A stretch of 8,214 bases of DNA from Candidatus Latescibacterota bacterium (GCA_016209865.1 JACQVL010000290.1:1-8214); one strand, 5' to 3'; shown: positions 1,091 to 7,825, counted from the first letter of the stretch. Numbers and translations are program-made. The notes: generated from the sequence alone by a model not told the origin.

Positions 1091-2932
1091 ATGCCTCATT
1101 CTTCTCTTTCCCTCACCATCCAGCCGGACGAGATCGTCGTTCAGGTGCCGTTCGAGACGACGGTCATGGACGCGCTCGCCCAGGCCGGAATCCCGATCAC
1201 CGCGCCGTGCGGCCGGATGGCTCACTGCGGGAAATGCCGCGTCGTGATCGCGGCCGGGGTGCTGCCGCCGACCGAGGTGGAAACAGTCGTCCTGACTGCG
1301 GACGAGATCGCCCATGGCGTCCGGCTCTCCTGCCAGGCCCGGCTGATCGACGAAGCCACGGTCATCGTCCCGCCGGCATCCCGCGCGGCAGAGATGCGCG
1401 TCCTCATCGGCGGGACGCCGAGGCAGGTGACGTTCGACCCCGGCGTGGTGAAGAAAACCTTCTCGTTGACTCAGCAGACGCTCGGTAGTGCGGTGTCGGA
1501 GTTCGATCATCTCGGCCGGACCTTAGACATCCGGGCGGACCTGACGGCGGGCCTGGCGTGCATCCAGGCCTTGCCCGCCGTGTTGCACGGGTCGGACGCG
1601 CAGGCGACTGCCGTCGTCTGCGGGGAGAGGTTGATCGCGGTCGAGCGGGGGGATACCGCCGCCCAGTGTTACGGGCTTGCGTTCGATGTCGGGACGACGA
1701 CCGTCGTCGGGACGTTGGTCGACCTGACCACCGGCCGGGATGTCGAATCCGCATCCGCCATCAACGCGCAGACCCAATACGGCCACGACGTGATCTCCCG
1801 GATTCATCTGACCCTGGAGCGGGAGGACGGCCTGGCGCTCCTCCAGCAGGCGGCCATCACCACGGTCAACCTCATCATCGACAAGCTGCTCGCGCGCGCC
1901 GGGGTGCGAGCAGACGACATCTACGAGATGACCGTCGTCGGCAACGCGACGATGATGCACCTGTTCTTAGGCATCCCGCCCCGGTCGTTGGGGTTTCTGC
2001 CGTACGTCCCGGTCATCAGTCATGCCGTCGACGTGGACGCGAAGATGTTAAGAGTGGCCATCAACCCGGTCGCCAACGTCCACGTCCTGCCCAACATCGC
2101 CGGGTTCGTCGGGGCGGACACGGTCGGCGCATTACTGGCGGCTGGATTGGACGAGCCGGACGACGGAGTCAGGCTGTTAGCCGACGTCGGAACAAACTGC
2201 GAGATCGTGCTCCGATTAGGCCACCGACTGATCGCCTGTTCGACCCCGGCCGGTCCGGCGTTCGAGGGTGCGCGCATCCAGCACGGGATGTACGCGGCCC
2301 CCGGCGCGATCGAGCAGGTCAGCCTGGAAGGGGAGTGTGTCTACAAAGTCATCGGGCGGACGAGTCCACAGGGCATCTGCGGGTCCGGGCTGATCGACAT
2401 CGGGGCCGAACTGCTCCGGGTCGGGTTGATGGACGAAACCGGCCGGCTGCTGTCGGCTGAGGAAGTAGACGGACAGGTCAGCCAGGCGTTGCGGGATCGT
2501 CTTGCCGATGAAGGAAACGAGCGGCATTTTCTGATCGCGCACTCCGAGACGGGACAGCTCATTACCTTAACTCAGCGGGACATTCGGGAGCTTCAGGTGG
2601 CGAAAGCGGCCATCCGGAGCGGGATCGACGCGCTGCTGGCCACGGCCGGCCTCCGCCCCACCGACATCTCGACCCTTTACTTAGCGGGCGGGTTTGGCAG
2701 TTATCTCAACAAAGACCACGCGGTCCGGCTGGGGATGATCCCTGAGATGCCCCTCGACCGCATCCGGTTCATCGGCAATGCGGCGGCGGTCGGGGCCAAA
2801 CTCGTCCTCATCTCTCAAGAGATGCGGCGGCGAGCGCAGCGAGTGGCGCGGACGACCGAGCATCTCCAGATCGCCGAGACGGCGGATTTCCAGTCCCGGT
2901 TTGCGGAGGCGATGCTGTTTGAAAGGCAGTGA
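1091..2932 (+). CDS. corrinoid-activating ASKHA protein with N-terminal 2Fe-2S ferredoxin domain (DUF4445/RACo/RamA-like)
   Basis: This 613-residue protein is a reductive activator of corrinoid proteins. Such enzymes use ATP hydrolysis to drive reduction of inactive Co(II) corrinoid to Co(I). The N-terminal ferredoxin domain (about 5-95) has Cys40-x5-Cys46-x2-Cys49 and Cys81, the plant-type 2Fe-2S ligand pattern. A linker domain follows (about 100-190). The ASKHA nucleotide-binding core then shows DVGTTT (199-204), VGNATMMH (283-290), DVGTNCE (365-371), GICGSG (428-433), LAGGFGS (531-537) and an IGNAAAVGA segment near the end. This is the bacterial RACo/activase architecture; methanogen RamA instead has C-terminal 4Fe-4S clusters. 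The gene starts three bases after the corrinoid protein gene, its likely partner. The ribosome binding site is weak, so translation is probably coupled. Its stop codon lies inside a repeat arm that begins at 2927. Family assignment is firm; the specific partner is inferred from adjacency. Confidence 0.95.
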   Translation: MPHSSLSLTIQPDEIVVQVPFETTVMDALAQAGIPITAPCGRMAHCGKCRVVIAAGVLPPTEVETVVLTADEIAHGVRLSCQARLIDEATVIVPPASRAAEMRVLIGGTPRQVTFDPGVVKKTFSLTQQTLGSAVSEFDHLGRTLDIRADLTAGLACIQALPAVLHGSDAQATAVVCGERLIAVERGDTAAQCYGLAFDVGTTTVVGTLVDLTTGRDVESASAINAQTQYGHDVISRIHLTLEREDGLALLQQAAITTVNLIIDKLLARAGVRADDIYEMTVVGNATMMHLFLGIPPRSLGFLPYVPVISHAVDVDAKMLRVAINPVANVHVLPNIAGFVGADTVGALLAAGLDEPDDGVRLLADVGTNCEIVLRLGHRLIACSTPAGPAFEGARIQHGMYAAPGAIEQVSLEGECVYKVIGRTSPQGICGSGLIDIGAELLRVGLMDETGRLLSAEEVDGQVSQALRDRLADEGNERHFLIAHSETGQLITLTQRDIRELQVAKAAIRSGIDALLATAGLRPTDISTLYLAGGFGSYLNKDHAVRLGMIPEMPLDRIRFIGNAAAVGAKLVLISQEMRRRAQRVARTTEHLQIAETADFQSRFAEAMLFERQ

Positions 2933-3112
2933 CGAGTGATAAGTGACGAGTGACGAGTAAGACCAATTCTCTCTGAAAGTCACGCATACGCCATCATGTG
3001 GATTCTCGCTCCTCGCTTTTGCGAGGATCAGTTTCGCGGGAATGACAGTAGAGAAACAGTTGCACCAGGGAGTATGTTTTACTCGTCACTTGTCACTCGT
3101 CACTTGTCACTG
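2927..3112 (+). repeat. long inverted repeat with heptamer-array arms (GTGACGA word)
   Basis: The left arm (2927-2962) and right arm (3077-3112) are each 36 bases and complementary at 31 positions. Of the other five, four would be G-U pairs in the plus-strand RNA and one is A-C. The left arm is a run of the 7-base word GTGACGA with variants, and the right arm is its complement. The left arm contains the stop codon of the activase gene (2930-2932). The right arm ends four bases before GAGAGGG (3116-3122), the ribosome binding site of the DUF1638 gene. The 114-base loop contains a smaller palindrome. As RNA this would be a large stem, which could end or attenuate transcription, though no clear U-tract follows. 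The arms resemble the heptanucleotide repeats described as STRRs in cyanobacteria. Confidence 0.9.
3002..3043. repeat. REP-like palindrome nested in the loop of the heptamer inverted repeat
   Basis: ATTCTCGC (3002-3009) pairs with GCGGGAAT (3036-3043) with one G-T mispair. Inside it, CCTCGC (3011-3016) pairs perfectly with GCGAGG (3021-3026) around a TTTT loop. With its flanks, the element has the shape of the common GGATTCCCGC...GCGGGAATGAC interspersed palindrome found in many GC-rich genomes, here apparently expanded by an inner hairpin. I see no gene in the 194-base gap that holds it. Confidence 0.6.
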
Positions 3113-3126
3113 ATTGAGAGGGTCGT

Positions 3127-3873
3127 ATGCGTCTCTACATCATCTCCTGTGAAGTCTTCTGCCGCGAGTTCCAGGTGTTTGCGTCGGCGTCGCGGCATCT
3201 GATCGACACCGTTTTCAAGCCGTTCGGGCTGCACGACACGCCGGAAGTCCTCCGCGAGCGGCTCCAGGAGGCGATCGATGCGGTCCCCTCCGGCCGGTAC
3301 GATTACATTCTCATCGGCTATGGCCTGTGCTGCCGGGGAACAGCCGGGCTGGTCGCGCGGGACACCCCGCTCGTCTTCGTCCGCGCGCACGATTGCATCA
3401 CCTTCTTCCTCGGCTCGAAAGAACGGTACATCCACCAATTCACCGAACATCCGGGGACGTATTACTATACCTCAGGGTGGATCGAGCGCAAGGATGGGCA
3501 TGCGGAGCAGGGGCACACCAGGGCGCTGAAGGATATCGAACGGCAGGCCCGGTTCGAGCGGTACGTCGAGCGGTACGGCGAGGACAACGCCCGGTATCTG
3601 ATCGAGATGGAGACCCAGTGGCTGAGCCAGTACAAACGCGCGGCGTTCATCGACCTCGGCATCGGGAACACGGAAACCTACCAGACGTTCGTTCAGGGTG
3701 TTGCAGAGACACACGGATGGGAATACGAGGAGATTCAGGGGGATACCCGTTTGATCGAGCGGTTCCTCGAAGGGGAGTGGGACCCGGAGAGTTTTCTCAT
3801 CGTCCCGCCCGGACAGCGCATGGCCGAGACGCATGATGCGAGCATCATAAAGGTGGAAAATAAAGCGGGTTGA
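3127..3873 (+). CDS. DUF1638 family protein of unknown function
   Basis: I recognise this 248-residue protein as DUF1638 from its opening (MRLYIISCEVFCRE), the central GYGLCC segment and the following DCITFFLGSKERY segment. The family has no established biochemical role that I know of, but members are commonly found beside corrinoid methyltransferase genes, as here. Visible candidate metal or thiol ligands are Cys8-x3-Cys12, Cys68-Cys69 and His88-x-Cys90. No signal peptide or membrane helix is seen, so it should be cytoplasmic. The ATG is supported by GAGAGGG at 3116-3122. The gene stands alone between two inverted repeats, which suggests that its expression may be set separately from its neighbours. 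Possible roles, all inference, are in metal or corrinoid handling or in assisting a UroD-like partner. Family call strong; function unknown. Confidence 0.88.
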   Translation: MRLYIISCEVFCREFQVFASASRHLIDTVFKPFGLHDTPEVLRERLQEAIDAVPSGRYDYILIGYGLCCRGTAGLVARDTPLVFVRAHDCITFFLGSKERYIHQFTEHPGTYYYTSGWIERKDGHAEQGHTRALKDIERQARFERYVERYGEDNARYLIEMETQWLSQYKRAAFIDLGIGNTETYQTFVQGVAETHGWEYEEIQGDTRLIERFLEGEWDPESFLIVPPGQRMAETHDASIIKVENKAG

Positions 3874-3928
3874 GGTTAAGGTTGAGTAACAACCGAACTT
3901 TCTTAACCTTAACCTCAACCTTAACCTT
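3868..3928 (+). repeat. hairpin with hexamer-array arms (GGTTAA/AACCTT words), possible terminator
   Basis: The perfect 16-base arm GGTTGAGGTTAAGGTT (3868-3883) is complementary to 3905-3920. The stem extends by three more pairs (3884-3886 with 3902-3904, one of them G-U) to about 19 pairs around a 15-base loop (3887-3901). The arms are tandem hexamers, GGTTGA/GGTTAA on the left and AACCTT/AACCTC on the right, and the right array runs on to 3928. The left arm covers the TGA stop of the DUF1638 gene (3871-3873). A pyrimidine-rich stretch with several T runs (about 3926-3939) follows, so of the three paired repeats this one most resembles an intrinsic terminator. It fills almost all of the 77-base gap. 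Confidence 0.85.
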
Positions 3929-3940
3929 ATTTCTTTCTAT

Positions 3941-3947
3941 CGAGGTG
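3941..3947 (+). promoter_or_regulatory. ribosome binding site fixing the start of the second UroD-like gene
   Basis: CGAGGTG lies a few bases before the ATG at 3951. The frame is also open from an upstream ATG at 3870, but that start overlaps the DUF1638 stop and would add 27 residues translated from the hexamer repeat. This site and the family-typical N-terminus support 3951. Confidence 0.75.
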
Positions 3948-3950
3948 TGC

Positions 3951-5054
3951 ATGATTGATCGTGAACGCTGGGTCCGCACGATGCACTTCCAGCGTGTCGA
4001 TCATGTGCCGGACGAAGAGTTCGGGTACTGGACGGACACCCTGACCGCCTGGCATCAGCAGGGACTCCCGGCGCATGTGTTGAACGACCCGCAAGCCGAC
4101 CGGTATTTCGGGTTTGCCCGGCGCGAGCACGTCCCGCTCCACCTGGGTCTCATCCCCAGCTTCGAGTACCGGGTCTTAGAGGAGACCGACCAGCATCGGG
4201 TGGTCATCGACAACGCCGGGGTCACCTGTTTGATCAAGAAAGACGGCACGTCCTCCATCCCGAAATACCTCAAGTTTCCGATCCAGACGCGGGACGACTG
4301 GGCGTGGTTCAAAGAACGGCTCAACTCGCACGACCCGCGCCGGCATCCCGCCAACTGGGATGAACTGAAGGCGCAGTGGGCGACGCGCGATTACCCACTC
4401 GGCGTCAGCGTCGGGAGTCTGTTCGGCTGGCTGCGGGACTGGATGGGGTTTGAGCACATCACGGTGACGTGCATCGACGACCCGGACTGGGTGCATGAGA
4501 TGATGGAGCATCTGACCGAGTTCATCCTCACCATCATCGACCAGGCCGTCCGGGAGGTCGACCTGGATTTCGCGTCATTCTGGGAGGACATGTGCTTCAA
4601 CATGGGGCCGATGATCTCTCCGGCGATGTTCAAGGAATTCATGGTGCCGAGGTACAAACGGATTACGGATTTCCTGCGGGCGCACGGGGTGGATGTCATC
4701 TACGTGGACTGCGACGGCAACATCAACGAACTGGTGGAATTGTGGCTGGAAGGTGGGGTCAACTGCATGTTCCCGCTTGAGATTCAGAGCGGCTCTGATC
4801 CTATTCCGATGCGGGAACAATACGGGAACCAGGTGTTGCTGATGGGGGGAGTGGACAAGACGAAACTGATCGAGGGGAAAGCGGCCATCCGGCGGGAGAT
4901 CGATCGGATCGCCCCGCTCGTCGCGGCCGGGGGCTACATCCCGCACGTCGATCATCGGTGCCCGCCCGACGTCACGTTCGAGAACTACCGGTATTACTTG
5001 AAGACGAAACGCGAGGCGTTCGGGATTCCGGAACCCGTGCGAGAGGAGCGGTAG
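3951..5054 (+). CDS. UroD/MtaA-superfamily methyltransferase-like protein (second paralogue)
   Basis: This 367-residue TIM-barrel protein is full length for the family. The N-terminus (MIDRERWVRTMHFQRVDHVP) matches the usual opening of UroD-like proteins in methyl-transfer clusters. FWEDMCFNMGPMISP (210-224) is a conserved active-site segment, and GGYIPHVDHRCPPDV closes the barrel. At the metal site it has Val-Asp253-Cys254-Asp255 instead of the MtaA-type His-x-Cys, so the first histidine ligand is absent. It has His335-x-Cys337 near the C-terminal ligand position, where a Cys337 is not usual for the DH-containing branch. Its substrate is not deducible. One base separates it from the nitroreductase start, so the two form an operon. 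It is too divergent from true HemE to be a heme-pathway decarboxylase, and no other heme gene is nearby. Family certain, activity inferred. Confidence 0.92.
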   Translation: MIDRERWVRTMHFQRVDHVPDEEFGYWTDTLTAWHQQGLPAHVLNDPQADRYFGFARREHVPLHLGLIPSFEYRVLEETDQHRVVIDNAGVTCLIKKDGTSSIPKYLKFPIQTRDDWAWFKERLNSHDPRRHPANWDELKAQWATRDYPLGVSVGSLFGWLRDWMGFEHITVTCIDDPDWVHEMMEHLTEFILTIIDQAVREVDLDFASFWEDMCFNMGPMISPAMFKEFMVPRYKRITDFLRAHGVDVIYVDCDGNINELVELWLEGGVNCMFPLEIQSGSDPIPMREQYGNQVLLMGGVDKTKLIEGKAAIRREIDRIAPLVAAGGYIPHVDHRCPPDVTFENYRYYLKTKREAFGIPEPVREER

Positions 5055-5055
5055 G

Positions 5056-5583
5056 GTGGATTTCTTCAGTCTGATCAAGAGCCGGCGGTCGATCCGGATC
5101 TACGAGCCCTGGACGGTCGAGCCTGAGAAGCTGTACCAAATCCTGGAGGCGATCAACGCCGCGCCGTCGGCGGGAAACCTGCAGGCCTACGACGTGGTCG
5201 TCGTCCGCGACCAGGACCGGAAGCAGCAATTGGCGGCCGCCGCCTGGGATCAGACGTTCATCGCCCAGGCTCCTCTGGTGCTCGTGTTCTGCGCCAACCC
5301 TGGACGTTCTGCGGAACGGTACAAGCGACGAGGAGCGGAACTGTACTGCATCCAGGACGCAGCCATCGCCGCGGCGTACGCCCAACTGGCCGCGACCGCC
5401 CTCGACCTCGCCAGCGTCTGGGTCGGGTCGTTCGAGACCGAGAAGGTTTGCGAAGCCCTCGGCGCGACGGCGGAGTTCGTCCCGGTGACGATCATGCCGA
5501 TCGGCTACCCGGCGGAGAGCCCGCCCCCGTCGACACGGAGGCCACTGATCGACCTTGTGCACGAGGAACGGCTGGATGACTAA
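5056..5583 (+). CDS. nitroreductase-family flavoprotein
   Basis: This 175-residue protein belongs to the FMN-dependent nitroreductase family, whose dimeric members reduce varied substrates with NAD(P)H or act as flavin-linked electron carriers. The N-terminal segment with Lys8-Ser-Arg10-Arg11-Ser12 and AAPSAGNLQ (35-43) are the usual FMN phosphate and ring contacts. MPIGYP (147-152) followed by RRPLIDLVHEE is the normal C-terminal ending. The start is GTG, one base after the TAG of the UroD-like gene, with GAGAGGAG at 5041-5048 as ribosome binding site inside that gene. Such tight coupling suggests a shared task, possibly supplying electrons to the corrinoid activase or modifying a substrate. 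BluB, which makes the B12 lower ligand, belongs to the same superfamily but is usually longer, so I do not favour it. Family strong; role open. Confidence 0.92.
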   Translation: MDFFSLIKSRRSIRIYEPWTVEPEKLYQILEAINAAPSAGNLQAYDVVVVRDQDRKQQLAAAAWDQTFIAQAPLVLVFCANPGRSAERYKRRGAELYCIQDAAIAAAYAQLAATALDLASVWVGSFETEKVCEALGATAEFVPVTIMPIGYPAESPPPSTRRPLIDLVHEERLDD

Positions 5584-5600
5584 TCTTCCCTATCCCATCC

Positions 5601-5692
5601 CCCCACCGGGCAGGTAGGCAATGGGCAGTGGGCAGTAGAAGCCGTTCCCCCGTCTACTGCCCATCTGCCTACTGCCCATCTGCCCGGTGGGG
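5601..5692 (+). repeat. long hairpin with heptamer-array arms (TGGGCAG word)
   Basis: The left arm (5601-5639) and right arm (5653-5692) pair over about 39 bases around a 13-base loop (5640-5652). I count 35 Watson-Crick pairs, two G-T and two A-C mispairs, and one bulged base. The left arm is built of TGGGCAG-like heptamers ending in GTAGA. C-rich sequence before it and G-rich sequence after it (to about 5706) could extend the pairing. It lies 17 bases after the nitroreductase stop and 16 bases before the ribosome binding site of the next gene. It fills most of the 139-base gap, and I see no gene there. No U-tract follows it. Confidence 0.9.
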
Positions 5693-5708
5693 AGGGGTGA
5701 GGGGTGGC

Positions 5709-5716
5709 AAAAGGAG
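5709..5716 (+). promoter_or_regulatory. ribosome binding site fixing the start of the third UroD-like gene
   Basis: AAAAGGAG is a near-perfect Shine-Dalgarno site six bases before the ATG at 5723. The frame is also open from an ATG at 5687, but that codon lies within the right arm of the hairpin and would add 12 residues with no family resemblance. Confidence 0.85.
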
Positions 5717-5722
5717 CCCACG

Positions 5723-6796
5723 ATGACCTCACGAGAGCGTATACTCACCGCCCTGAAGCATCAGGAAGCAGACCGTATCCCCATCCACGACAGTCCCTGG
5801 GGATCGACCATCAACCGGTGGCGCAAGGAAGGGATGCCGGACGACATCCCCCCGGCGGAGTATTTCGAGTACGAGCTGGCGTCGTTCGGCGCGGACCTCT
5901 CGCCCGGGTTTCCGGTGAAGATCCTGGAGAAGAATGAAACGTATATCGTCGAGACCACCCCCTACGGCGGGGTGAGGAAGAACTTCCGGGACTACTCGAC
6001 CACCCCGGAAGTGATCGGCTGGCCGATTCAGTCGAAAGAGGACTGGGATCGGATTAAGCCCCGGCTGGTGCCGGATTACACCCGGCTGGATTGGGTCAGC
6101 ACGCGGGTCAACTACGAGCGGGCGGTCGAGGAGGGAAAGTTCATCACGTTCGGCGCCGCGATGGGGTATGACCTGTTTCAGTCGTACATGAAGAGCGAGG
6201 AGGAGCTCATCGCGCTCGTCACCGAACCGGACTGGATGCGTGAGATGTTCCGCACCCATGCCGACCTGCTGGTCGAGATGGCGAAGATAATGATGGAAAA
6301 GGGGTATAAATTTGACGGCGCCTTCCTATACAACGACATGGGCTACCGGAATGGGTTGCTGTTCTCCCCTGAGACATACCGTTCCCTCCTCCTTGAGACG
6401 GATCAGATCGTCTGCGACTTCTTCCACGGTCACGACATGCCCGTGATCCTCCACAGTTGCGGGGGTGTGAAGGAACTCATCCCGCACCTGATCGAGGCGG
6501 GGTTCGACTGTCTCCAGCCGCTCGAGGTGAAGGCCGGGATGGACCTGATCGAGCTGAAGGAGCAGTACGGCGACCGGATGGCGTTCATGGGCGGCATCGA
6601 CGTCCGGGCGATGGCGCACCCCGACCCGGCGGTGATCGAGGAGGAGATCGGCACGAAGATCGAGGCGGCGAAACAGGGCGGGGGGTACATCTACCATTCC
6701 GACCACTCCGTGCCCAAGAACGTGAGTTTCTCGCAATACCTGCGGGTCATGGAGCTGGTCAGACAGCACGGACAATACAATGGCGCAGTGGTCTGA
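5723..6796 (+). CDS. UroD/MtaA-superfamily methyltransferase (third paralogue, with His-x-Cys metal motif)
   Basis: This 357-residue protein opens with MTSRERILTALKHQEADRIP, the standard N-terminus of UroD-like corrinoid methyltransferases. DGAFLYNDMGYRNGLLFSPE (from residue 198) is the conserved mid-barrel segment. His244-Ser-Cys246-Gly matches the zinc-binding His-x-Cys of MtaA-type methyltransferases, and Asp327-His328 in the SDHSVP segment occupies the position where MtaA has its third ligand, a cysteine. Of the three paralogues here it is the best candidate for a zinc-dependent methyltransferase that acts on the corrinoid protein. The next gene begins inside its last codons (17-base overlap), so the two are translationally coupled. 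That pairing suggests it works directly with the homocysteine methyltransferase, either delivering the methyl group to the corrinoid or acting on a shared substrate. Substrate unknown. Confidence 0.93.
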   Translation: MTSRERILTALKHQEADRIPIHDSPWGSTINRWRKEGMPDDIPPAEYFEYELASFGADLSPGFPVKILEKNETYIVETTPYGGVRKNFRDYSTTPEVIGWPIQSKEDWDRIKPRLVPDYTRLDWVSTRVNYERAVEEGKFITFGAAMGYDLFQSYMKSEEELIALVTEPDWMREMFRTHADLLVEMAKIMMEKGYKFDGAFLYNDMGYRNGLLFSPETYRSLLLETDQIVCDFFHGHDMPVILHSCGGVKELIPHLIEAGFDCLQPLEVKAGMDLIELKEQYGDRMAFMGGIDVRAMAHPDPAVIEEEIGTKIEAAKQGGGYIYHSDHSVPKNVSFSQYLRVMELVRQHGQYNGAVV

Positions 6797-7691
6797 GGCG
6801 CGACGCCCGACGCTCGCGCGACTGCCCGGATGGGCCTGGCTGGCGGACGGGGCGATGGGCACGATGGTGCAGACGGCCGGATTGCCGTCGGGCGAGTGTC
6901 CTGAATCGTGGAACGTGACGCACCCTGAGCGAATCATCGACATCCATCGGCAGTACCTCGATGCGGGGTGCGATATCATCTTGACGAATACGTTCGGCGG
7001 GTCCCGGCTCAAATTACGGCGGTTCGGCCTCGGCGATCGAGTTGGCGACTTCAACAGAGCGGGCGTCCGGCTTGCCCGGTCGGCCGCCCGGCCGGAGGCG
7101 CTCATCGCCGCGTCCATCGGTCCGACGGGGGAGCTACCCGAACCCTACGGAGAGGTGAGTGTCGAGACATTCATCCTGGTGTTCGCCGAGCAGATTGCCG
7201 CTGTGGCCGAAGAAGGAGTCGATCTCATCTGGATCGAAACGATGAGCGACCTGACGGAGGCCTGCGCGGCCATCACCGCCGCACAAGCGACCTGCCAGCT
7301 CCCGATCATCACGACGATGACGTTCGAGCGGAGTCCACGAGGCTATCATACGATGATGGGAGTGAGTCCGACGGAGGCAGCTCGGTGCCTTCTCGATGCC
7401 GGGGCGGACTGCGTCGGCGCGAACTGCGGCTTAGGGAGCGACGACACCGTCGAGATCATCCGGGCGATGCGCGCGGCAGTGCCGGATGCGATGCTCGTCG
7501 CCAAGCCGAACGCCGGGCTGCCGCAGTGGAACGACGGACAGGCGCTGTACCCTGAGACGCCGGAGTGGATGGCGGCACGCGTCCCCCGGTTGATCGACGC
7601 GGGAGTCCGCATCTTCGGCGGGTGCTGCGGGACGACCCCGGAGCATGTCCGCGCGATGGCGCGGGCGGGCAAGACAGTGGTCGGGAGGTAG
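6780..7691 (+). CDS. homocysteine S-methyltransferase (stand-alone MetH N-terminal / BHMT-type domain)
   Basis: This 303-residue TIM barrel transfers a methyl group to homocysteine, making methionine. LADGAMGTMVQ (about 21-31) and NTFGGS (about 70-75) are conserved substrate-site segments. The three zinc ligands are all present: Cys216 in GANCGLG and Cys282-Cys283 in GGCCGT. It is a single domain and lacks the pterin, cobalamin and reactivation domains of full MetH. Together with the separate corrinoid protein and activase upstream, it could form a methionine synthase made of separate polypeptides. Betaine or S-methylmethionine as direct donor is the alternative, because those single-domain enzymes share the fold. 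The ATG overlaps the UroD-like gene by 17 bases and has no strong ribosome binding site, consistent with coupling. Fold and zinc site firm; methyl donor inferred. Confidence 0.93.
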   Translation: MAQWSEARRPTLARLPGWAWLADGAMGTMVQTAGLPSGECPESWNVTHPERIIDIHRQYLDAGCDIILTNTFGGSRLKLRRFGLGDRVGDFNRAGVRLARSAARPEALIAASIGPTGELPEPYGEVSVETFILVFAEQIAAVAEEGVDLIWIETMSDLTEACAAITAAQATCQLPIITTMTFERSPRGYHTMMGVSPTEAARCLLDAGADCVGANCGLGSDDTVEIIRAMRAAVPDAMLVAKPNAGLPQWNDGQALYPETPEWMAARVPRLIDAGVRIFGGCCGTTPEHVRAMARAGKTVVGR

Positions 7692-7711
7692 TCGGTGGTC
7701 GGTGGTCGGTT
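7691..7711 (+). repeat. tandem heptamer array (GTCGGTG word) at the stop codon
   Basis: GTCGGTG is repeated as GTCGGTG GTCGGTG GTCGGTT directly from the last base of the TAG stop of the homocysteine methyltransferase gene. The preceding coding bases (GTGGTCGGGAGGTAG) look like degenerate copies, so the protein's last residues may derive from the array. Unlike the other arrays in the window it has no complementary partner downstream. Confidence 0.75.
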
Positions 7712-7734: not shown

Positions 7735-7825
7735 CCTAACCCCCGGCCCCTTCCCTGAAGGGAAGGGGAGCAACCAGGGCCTCTTGGCCCCCTTCCCTCG
7801 CAGGGAAGGGGGTCGGGGGGTTAGG
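7735..7825. repeat. nested GC-rich palindrome (CCTAACCCCCGG family), possible bidirectional terminator
   Basis: The outer arms, CCTAACCCCC (7735-7744) and GGGGGTTAGG (7816-7825), are perfectly complementary. Within them are two independent hairpins: CCCCTTCCC (7747-7755) with GGGAAGGGG (7760-7768), and CCCCCTTCCCT (7788-7798) with AGGGAAGGGGG (7802-7812). Between these, GGGCC (7777-7781) can pair with GGCCC (7786-7790). The two inner hairpins share the CCCCTTCCCT core. The element lies in the 158-base gap between convergent genes, where it could stop transcription from both sides, although no T-tract is visible. It looks like an interspersed repeat family; copy number cannot be judged from one window. 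Confidence 0.85.

Follow-up and report, generated by a model that had tools for sequence, protein, structure and literature searches.

The arrays closest to those described here are the GGGAATC and GGGGA(C/T)T heptamers of Xanthomonas and Nostoc, which are intergenic, prefer four units and have their G-rich strand near the open reading frame (ORF) on the 5' side (Rehm et al., 2015, PMC4692102). Many of these arrays overlap stop codons or lie close to them. Two Xanthomonas genomes carry 70-75 inverted pairs of GGGAATC arrays each, and the pair type is usually kept between species; a single word type was studied per genome, and the arrays were read as G-quadruplexes. Here we analyze a stretch of 8,214 nt from a Candidatus Latescibacterota bacterium (GCA_016209865.1, JACQVL010000290.1; below, the window), in which arrays of 6-7-letter words stand at gene ends. 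These arrays are a broad, multi-word variant of the repeats described for one word in Xanthomonas. With a probability that we put at roughly 0.55, they are small dispersed repeat elements with arms of tandem 6-7-letter words, inserted whole just downstream of stop codons.

As in Xanthomonas and Nostoc, the arrays in the genome of the window (G000) have a dominant period of 7 and about four units, are intergenic, and peak at lengths of 24 and 31 nt (three or four units plus 3 nt, that is, ~3.4 or 4.4 units); their G-rich strand lies close to the 5'-side ORF whatever the direction of the ORF. By contrast, G000 has about ten word families, most of which do not form G-quadruplexes: the main words GTGACGA, GATTTTG and AAGGACG lack four G-tracts of three, and only the GGGGTTC and AGGGGTC types resemble GGGNATC. 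Nested, stacked and hybrid arms occur in addition, and in relatives of other lineages whole elements are seen to be present or absent at the same gap. The original prediction, made from the window alone, took the paired arrangement to be the novelty; inverted pairs with the same gene orientation are, however, already known from Xanthomonas (Rehm et al., 2015, PMC4692102). What is added here is the presence of many words per genome, one layout across distant genomes, an apparent gain of whole elements beside stop codons that leaves the spacer in place, and the replacement of words at the same site.

Other described repeats share fewer of these features. The heptanucleotide short tandemly repeated repetitive (STRR) sequences of cyanobacteria, represented by the Calothrix repeats cited in PMC4692102, are likewise short tandem heptamers with several words per genome; they are described as single direct arrays, and that description includes neither pairing nor a position at gene ends. 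The TAACTGA repeats of Beggiatoaceae (MacGregor, 2015, PMC4679880) are also heptamer arrays beside genes, many just upstream of start codons, but the passages dealing with them present one word in direct repeats, with a single inverted case in the main genome and no stop-codon arm. Repetitive extragenic palindromes and bacterial interspersed mosaic elements (REP/BIME), as well as REPINs, are similarly small, intergenic, palindromic, dispersed and present in high copy number. As characterized in the relevant parts of PMC3116915 and PMC2817692, their arms are not tandem words, and they are tied to RAYT (REP-associated tyrosine) transposases, none of which was found in G000.

Word families and arm order in the genome of the window

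The window is the entire contig C245 of G000, a genome of 3.75 Mb in 356 contigs, 83% complete. Judged by DUF1638, the nearest named metagenome-assembled genomes are bins of Candidatus Poribacteria and Latescibacterota, and G000 is treated here as a Poribacteria genome; it is the sole member of its family in our comparison set, which includes 15 further genomes of the same order. The genome was sampled as 60 contigs plus the window (589 kb), with genes called as simple ORFs, and several of the sample sizes given below are small.

This sample contains 144 period-7 arrays, with essentially none expected by chance. Under a strict threshold there are 85, compared with 0 in Markov shuffles, and other periods are represented close to zero times except for 14. 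About ten word families could be distinguished, among them GTGACGA (44 arrays), GATTTTG (18), GGTGGTC (14), AGGGGTC (13) and AAGGACG (10). Three tandem copies of GTGACGA have 323 matches in G000 at no more than one mismatch, and the reversed control has 0; the same query had no match in the 15 other genomes of the order with two mismatches allowed. The genome scan called for by the original prediction came out as it had anticipated: heptamer arrays are genome-wide, often form inverted pairs and are strongly tied to gene ends.

The four gaps of the window do carry four different words, but this is unremarkable, as four arrays drawn from the genome pool would be that diverse with a chance of 42%. 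The impression that words are independent in each gap is thus a sampling effect, and the words are instead taken from the shared pool of about ten families. Within GTGACGA arrays, the same orders of variants recur as copies would (GAG in 8, GCGG in 6 and GAGG in 5 of 57), and the TGGGCAG element is dispersed as a unit with a conserved loop in 34 copies.

The G-rich arm comes first in all 40 inverted pairs of the sample; a count by array gave 61 of 61, and of 279 random flanks 5 passed the pairing threshold. For 29 of 39 G-rich arms, the nearest stop codon is at most 8 nt away (null expectation 8.0, maximum 13 in 200 permutations), and the G-rich arm lies nearer to the 5'-side gene than to the 3'-side gene in 36 of 39 cases on the stop side and 18 of 24 on the start side. 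Array length equals 3 mod 7 in 51 of the 144 arrays, those of GTGACGA mostly beginning and finishing on AGT, and many arms have an A-rich stretch (AGT-AAAAC) on the loop side. Nested pairs are common (in L086, a GGTTGA pair lies within a GTGACGA pair), as are inner palindromes of other kinds, and stacked arms are found, with GGTCGGT-AAAATC-AGTGACG recurrent.

Two simple accounts of these regularities were rejected. Arrays cannot serve as all-frame stop signals, as many words contain no stop codon. Nor is G content the sole definer of polarity: AGTCCTG and GGCTCTT have no more G than C, yet their order is constant. As low-G words keep a constant order, strict G-first counts, such as 11:7 in genome G368 and 53:9 among the IMG/VR contigs considered below, may understate the consistency.

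Occupied and empty gaps in ribosomal-protein operons

The S10-spc-alpha operon was compared in 15 genomes of one family, that of G368, where hairpins with 31-nt arms occupy most gaps of the ribosomal-protein operon region. These operons hold 58 inverted pairs, 48 of them with word arrays; the G-rich arm is first in 44 of the 48, and the four exceptions are a single word, RGCTCTT, again with constant order. Forty-two array pairs begin 1-16 nt (median 6) past the stop codon, 37 of them closer to it than to the next start, and this stop-proximal position holds for old spacers of 10 to 80 nt. The spacer beside the pair generally matches the full gap length of element-free relatives (for rplF-rplR, 40-58 vs. 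41-60 nt in most genomes), the rpsD-rpoA gap being an exception.

Many members of the family have no stem in the same operon gap. Within one genus, the map-infA gap reads TAGGAGGAACATG in G391, and in G390 a GGTGTCG hairpin of ~71 nt has been added after TAG; further occupied and empty cases were found between G399 and G400 and between G390 and G391. Where a gap is occupied in several genomes, the words may differ: rpsQ-rplN has AAGGATG in G390 and GGTTGTC in G391, and rplF-rplR has AGTGCTG, AGTCCTG and ATTGAGG in three genomes. The congeners G368 and G396 have sites, and in places loops, in common; the main difference between their words is a single letter, AGT[G/A/C]CTG, with six of seven letters near-fixed across unlinked sites.

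Because sites are empty in most relatives and the words at shared sites are unrelated, we infer gain rather than loss: complete elements appear to have been acquired at gene ends, with turnover of their words. That something spreads or makes arrays at gene ends, as had been proposed for the window, is supported by these gaps that are occupied in some relatives and empty in others. A true target preference for the stop codon is likely, since the elements sit at the stop even where a spacer of 40-80 nt is available. The comparisons make the heptamer length, the gene-end placement and the G-rich-first order a testable question of small-repeat insertion.

The same data bear on growth in place, in which an array would arise at the gene end by polymerase slippage and its inverted partner would be copied from it by hairpin template switching. 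The position of arrays at the edge of the spacer fits this scheme, heptamers are the favored slippage unit according to Mrazek (as cited in PMC4692102 and PMC4679880), and the pairs of G368 do match at the subfamily level (p = 0.002). However, the full ancestral spacer is retained beside the pair, and unlinked sites repeatedly show a small common set of words and variant orders. Moreover, each word has one variable letter, as in AGTGAC[G/A/C], and arms do not mirror it in G000 (p = 0.57, n = 9) or G396 (p = 0.50, n = 7). We consider growth in place distinctly unlikely.

The layout extends further. Three of the words were used to retrieve 73 IMG/VR contigs, which served as a source of other taxa only; their arrays are no evidence of phage carriage. 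These contigs contain many other heptamer words, with the G-rich arm first in 53 cases and second in 9. A survey of 384 genomes from 322 genera gave an AGTGNNN array in 55 genomes, belonging to 50 genera; its backwards-pattern control also detects arrays, so no null was taken from it. The richest of the 384 genomes, G337, has 643 AGTGNNN array matches (control 0), mostly AGTGCTG among the matches listed. Elements of this type occupy the non-overlapping gaps that follow the activase gene in the window, as well as numerous ribosomal-protein operon gaps of another family, and so they shape intergenic DNA, the structure of mRNAs and, plausibly, the way metagenome assemblies fragment.

Two side observations concern these operons. 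In the rplF-rplR gap of the G368 family (L221-L235), most genomes have a short conserved leader, GCCGGG..CCTCGGC, before rplR, which is intact downstream of hairpins and looks like a small RNA element. In the operon region of G399 (L243, synteny positions 7265 and 9976), pairs are built of longer words, GGTTGCGC of ~8 nt and an ATAGGAC-type word of ~9 nt, so the layout is not limited to 6-7 nt.

The four gaps of the window

The window encodes a corrinoid-binding protein, a RACo-type activase, DUF1638, two URO-D-type proteins, a nitroreductase and a homocysteine S-methyltransferase; Pfam confirmed the names activase, DUF1638, nitroreductase and homocysteine methyltransferase given earlier. An element is present in each non-overlapping gap downstream of the activase gene, and the URO-D/nitroreductase and URO-D/homocysteine methyltransferase pairs, which overlap or abut, have no array. 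All four arrays of the original prediction were found in their places, as three inverted pairs and a single arm. GTGACGA, TGGGCAG and GTCGGTG are as it named them; GGTTAA is more exactly the hexamer GGTTRA, a rarer family with 18 genome matches, other contigs included. The features are as follows.

2928..2958, + strand: G-rich arm of the GTGACGA gap, AGTGACG x 4.4, 31 nt; overlaps the activase stop TGA at 2930-2932
2959..3080, unstranded: loop region of the GTGACGA pair; includes another palindrome, of the GTCATTCCCGCG..GCGGGAATCC type, at ~3000-3050
3081..3111, - strand: C-rich arm of the GTGACGA gap, complement of AGTGACG x 4.4, 31 nt; precedes GAGAGGG and the DUF1638 ATG at 3127
3868..3889, + strand: GGTTRA hexamer arm; overlaps the DUF1638 stop TGA at 3871-3873
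3902..3929, - strand: complementary TTAACC arm; ~12 nt upstream of GAGGTG, with ATG at 3951
5584..5707, unstranded: entire TGGGCAG palindromic unit with outer C-rich/G-rich arms; loop GAAGCCNTTCCCCCGTC, kept in the 34 genome copies
~5608..5638, + strand: TGGGCAG G-rich arm; 25 nt after the nitroreductase stop at 5581-5583
5653..5692, - strand: complementary CTGCCCA arm, enclosed by a wider G+C-rich palindrome; followed by AAGGAG and by ATG at 5723
7687..7710, + strand: single GGTGGTC (GTCGGTG) arm; overlaps the homocysteine methyltransferase stop TAG at 7689-7691
7735..7825, unstranded: a different intergenic palindrome, CCTAACCCCCGGCCCC..GGGTCGGGGGGTTAGG (G+C-rich CCTAACCCCCGGCCCCTTCC..GGGGTCGGGGGGTTAGG family); resembles L065 4759-4935 and L078 11016-11239

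As the prediction had it, three arrays (GTGACGA, GGTTRA and GTCGGTG) overlap the upstream stop codon, the TGGGCAG array lying 25 nt past it, and three (GTGACGA, GGTTRA and TGGGCAG) have a complementary partner before the ribosome binding site of the next gene. No partner of the GTCGGTG arm was found. Relatives of DUF1638 in other Poribacteria are too distant for comparison and array-free bar one unrelated array.

The three paired gaps have very stable predicted folds of -96.5, -34.6 and -92.2 kcal/mol (z = -8.9, -4.9 and -7.6 vs. shuffles). Together with the position directly after stop codons, this would fit selection at the RNA level, the hairpins being kept as terminators, insulators or protectors of mRNA ends and the word being incidental. 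However, there are no T-tails behind the stems: a search for intrinsic terminators (a G+C-rich stem plus a T-run) gave sites near chance level and none after a full array stem. Moreover, essential ribosomal-protein operons, in which ending transcripts early would do harm, have the same elements in many of their gaps, and many relatives are stemless in the same gap. Both the missing T-tails and the operon gaps make it unlikely that arrays end transcripts. Selection for a stem whatever its sequence, the other suggestion of the prediction, fails as the main cause: six of seven letters are near-fixed at unlinked sites in G368 and G396, and the free letter is unmatched between arms in G000, which means that more than the ability to pair is being kept. 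Overall, we find an origin by RNA-level selection quite improbable. A search of the window against Rfam 15 gave no match above the gathering score; sub-threshold miRNA matches were rejected as generic long-hairpin matches far below the cut-off.

Palindromes of other kinds accompany the arrays. The GTCATTCCCGCGAAAGCGGGAATCC-type palindrome at 3000-3050 recurs in array loops or beside arrays at the unlinked loci L057, L083 and L049, as if it inserted preferentially there. In the two regions resembling 7735..7825, L065 4759-4935 and L078 11016-11239, a TGGGCAG pair sits within a palindrome of that kind.

Possible origin of the arms

In the explanation that we favor, a hairpin would insert whole just past a stop codon and survive only where nothing is broken, that is, between the stop and the leader of the next gene. 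Arrays may be copied from the resident word pool of each genome in a REP/BIME-like manner, possibly through a hairpin-forming single-stranded DNA intermediate. Single arms could then be remnants or half copies, and nested and stacked arms later insertions into the loop. In RNA, the elements would form strong stems between cistrons that are predicted not to end transcripts; they would be tolerated and might serve as sites of 3'-end protection or processing.

Several observations weigh against insertion. A mobile hairpin should carry its loop, yet for most words (GTGACGA, AGTGCTG and others) loops are not conserved between copies; a conserved palindrome including the loop, as in REP/BIME, is seen for the TGGGCAG unit. 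The target-site duplication at the cleanest site (map-infA, G390 vs. G391) is 2 nt at most, 70 of the 127 fully flanked arrays of G000 have no partner above threshold, and hybrid gaps are common, such as L056 with a left GTGACGA arm and a right GGTGGTC arm. The occupied and empty gaps come from genomes of other phyla, not from the lineage of the window. A constant arm order for a given word is automatic, because an inverted repeat reads the same in either orientation; the G-first bias across many words is not, and, with the unconserved loops, it is left unexplained by insertion. Finally, a search of G000 (83% complete) for RAYT (PF01797, Y1_Tnp) gave 0 matches, and the number of RAYT genes is not significantly related to array load within the comparison family (rho = 0.39, p = 0.15).

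The last two points also apply to the specific version in which the arrays are REP/BIME elements that a RAYT (TnpA-REP) transposase mobilizes. The elements are indeed intergenic, palindromic and high-copy, and RAYT-family genes are present in 12 of 15 array-rich genomes. Still, G185 and G265 lack RAYT as G000 does, G387 and G388 have eight RAYT-family matches each and no operon pairs, and REPs are not tandem heptamers, which leaves this version very unlikely. If the arms are copied, we are dealing with a mobile repeat without its known transposase.

Alternatively, arms could be written de novo: at a break or nick in a gene end, an RNA-templated or word-specified polymerase would extend the 3' ends with tandem repeats, so that both flanks receive a G-rich strand running inward, and the ends would be joined over a filler loop. 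Such telomerase-like synthesis has a partial parallel in DRT10 (PMC12632851), also a bacterial polymerase, whose product is short tandem DNA repeats with defined ends. It would account together for the arm order across many words, the unconserved loops, and the hybrid and stacked arms, and arrays that begin and end on the same three letters (AGT..AGT; 7k+3) fit the A-B-A' template set out in that paper. On the other hand, DRT10 as presented there yields 9-nt repeats as protein-primed free cDNA in phage defense, not chromosomal insertions; many words per genome would require many templates; and the TGGGCAG unit retains its loop. No RVT_1 reverse transcriptase was found in G000 or in 7 of 14 other array-bearing genomes, several of them at least 95% complete, template RNA not being among the things searched for. 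Writing by such a polymerase therefore seems to us a poor prospect. In its broadest form, a widespread, unrecognized process would write tandem words on both sides of breaks beside stop codons, the arms being synthesized rather than transposed, the word set by the genome and variable between species, and the order, the 7k+3 length and the site fixed across phyla; this is rather doubtful. De novo writing, if true, would be a new way of making DNA.

Insertion thus remains the preferred reading of the arrays. Two further observations concern individual arms. In the ribosomal-protein operon of G368 (L214/L250), five gaps whose loops are unrelated have an identical 31-mer (variant order GAGA) as their start-side arm, and the stop-side arm is variable; arms of the two sides seem to have different histories. 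In L050 (4752-5058), a thiamine pyrophosphate (TPP) riboswitch (Rfam RF00059, 68.9 bits) lies directly downstream of stacked GGTAGTC and then GTGACGA arms, so that the stacked arrays lie upstream of the regulatory leader and do not replace it.

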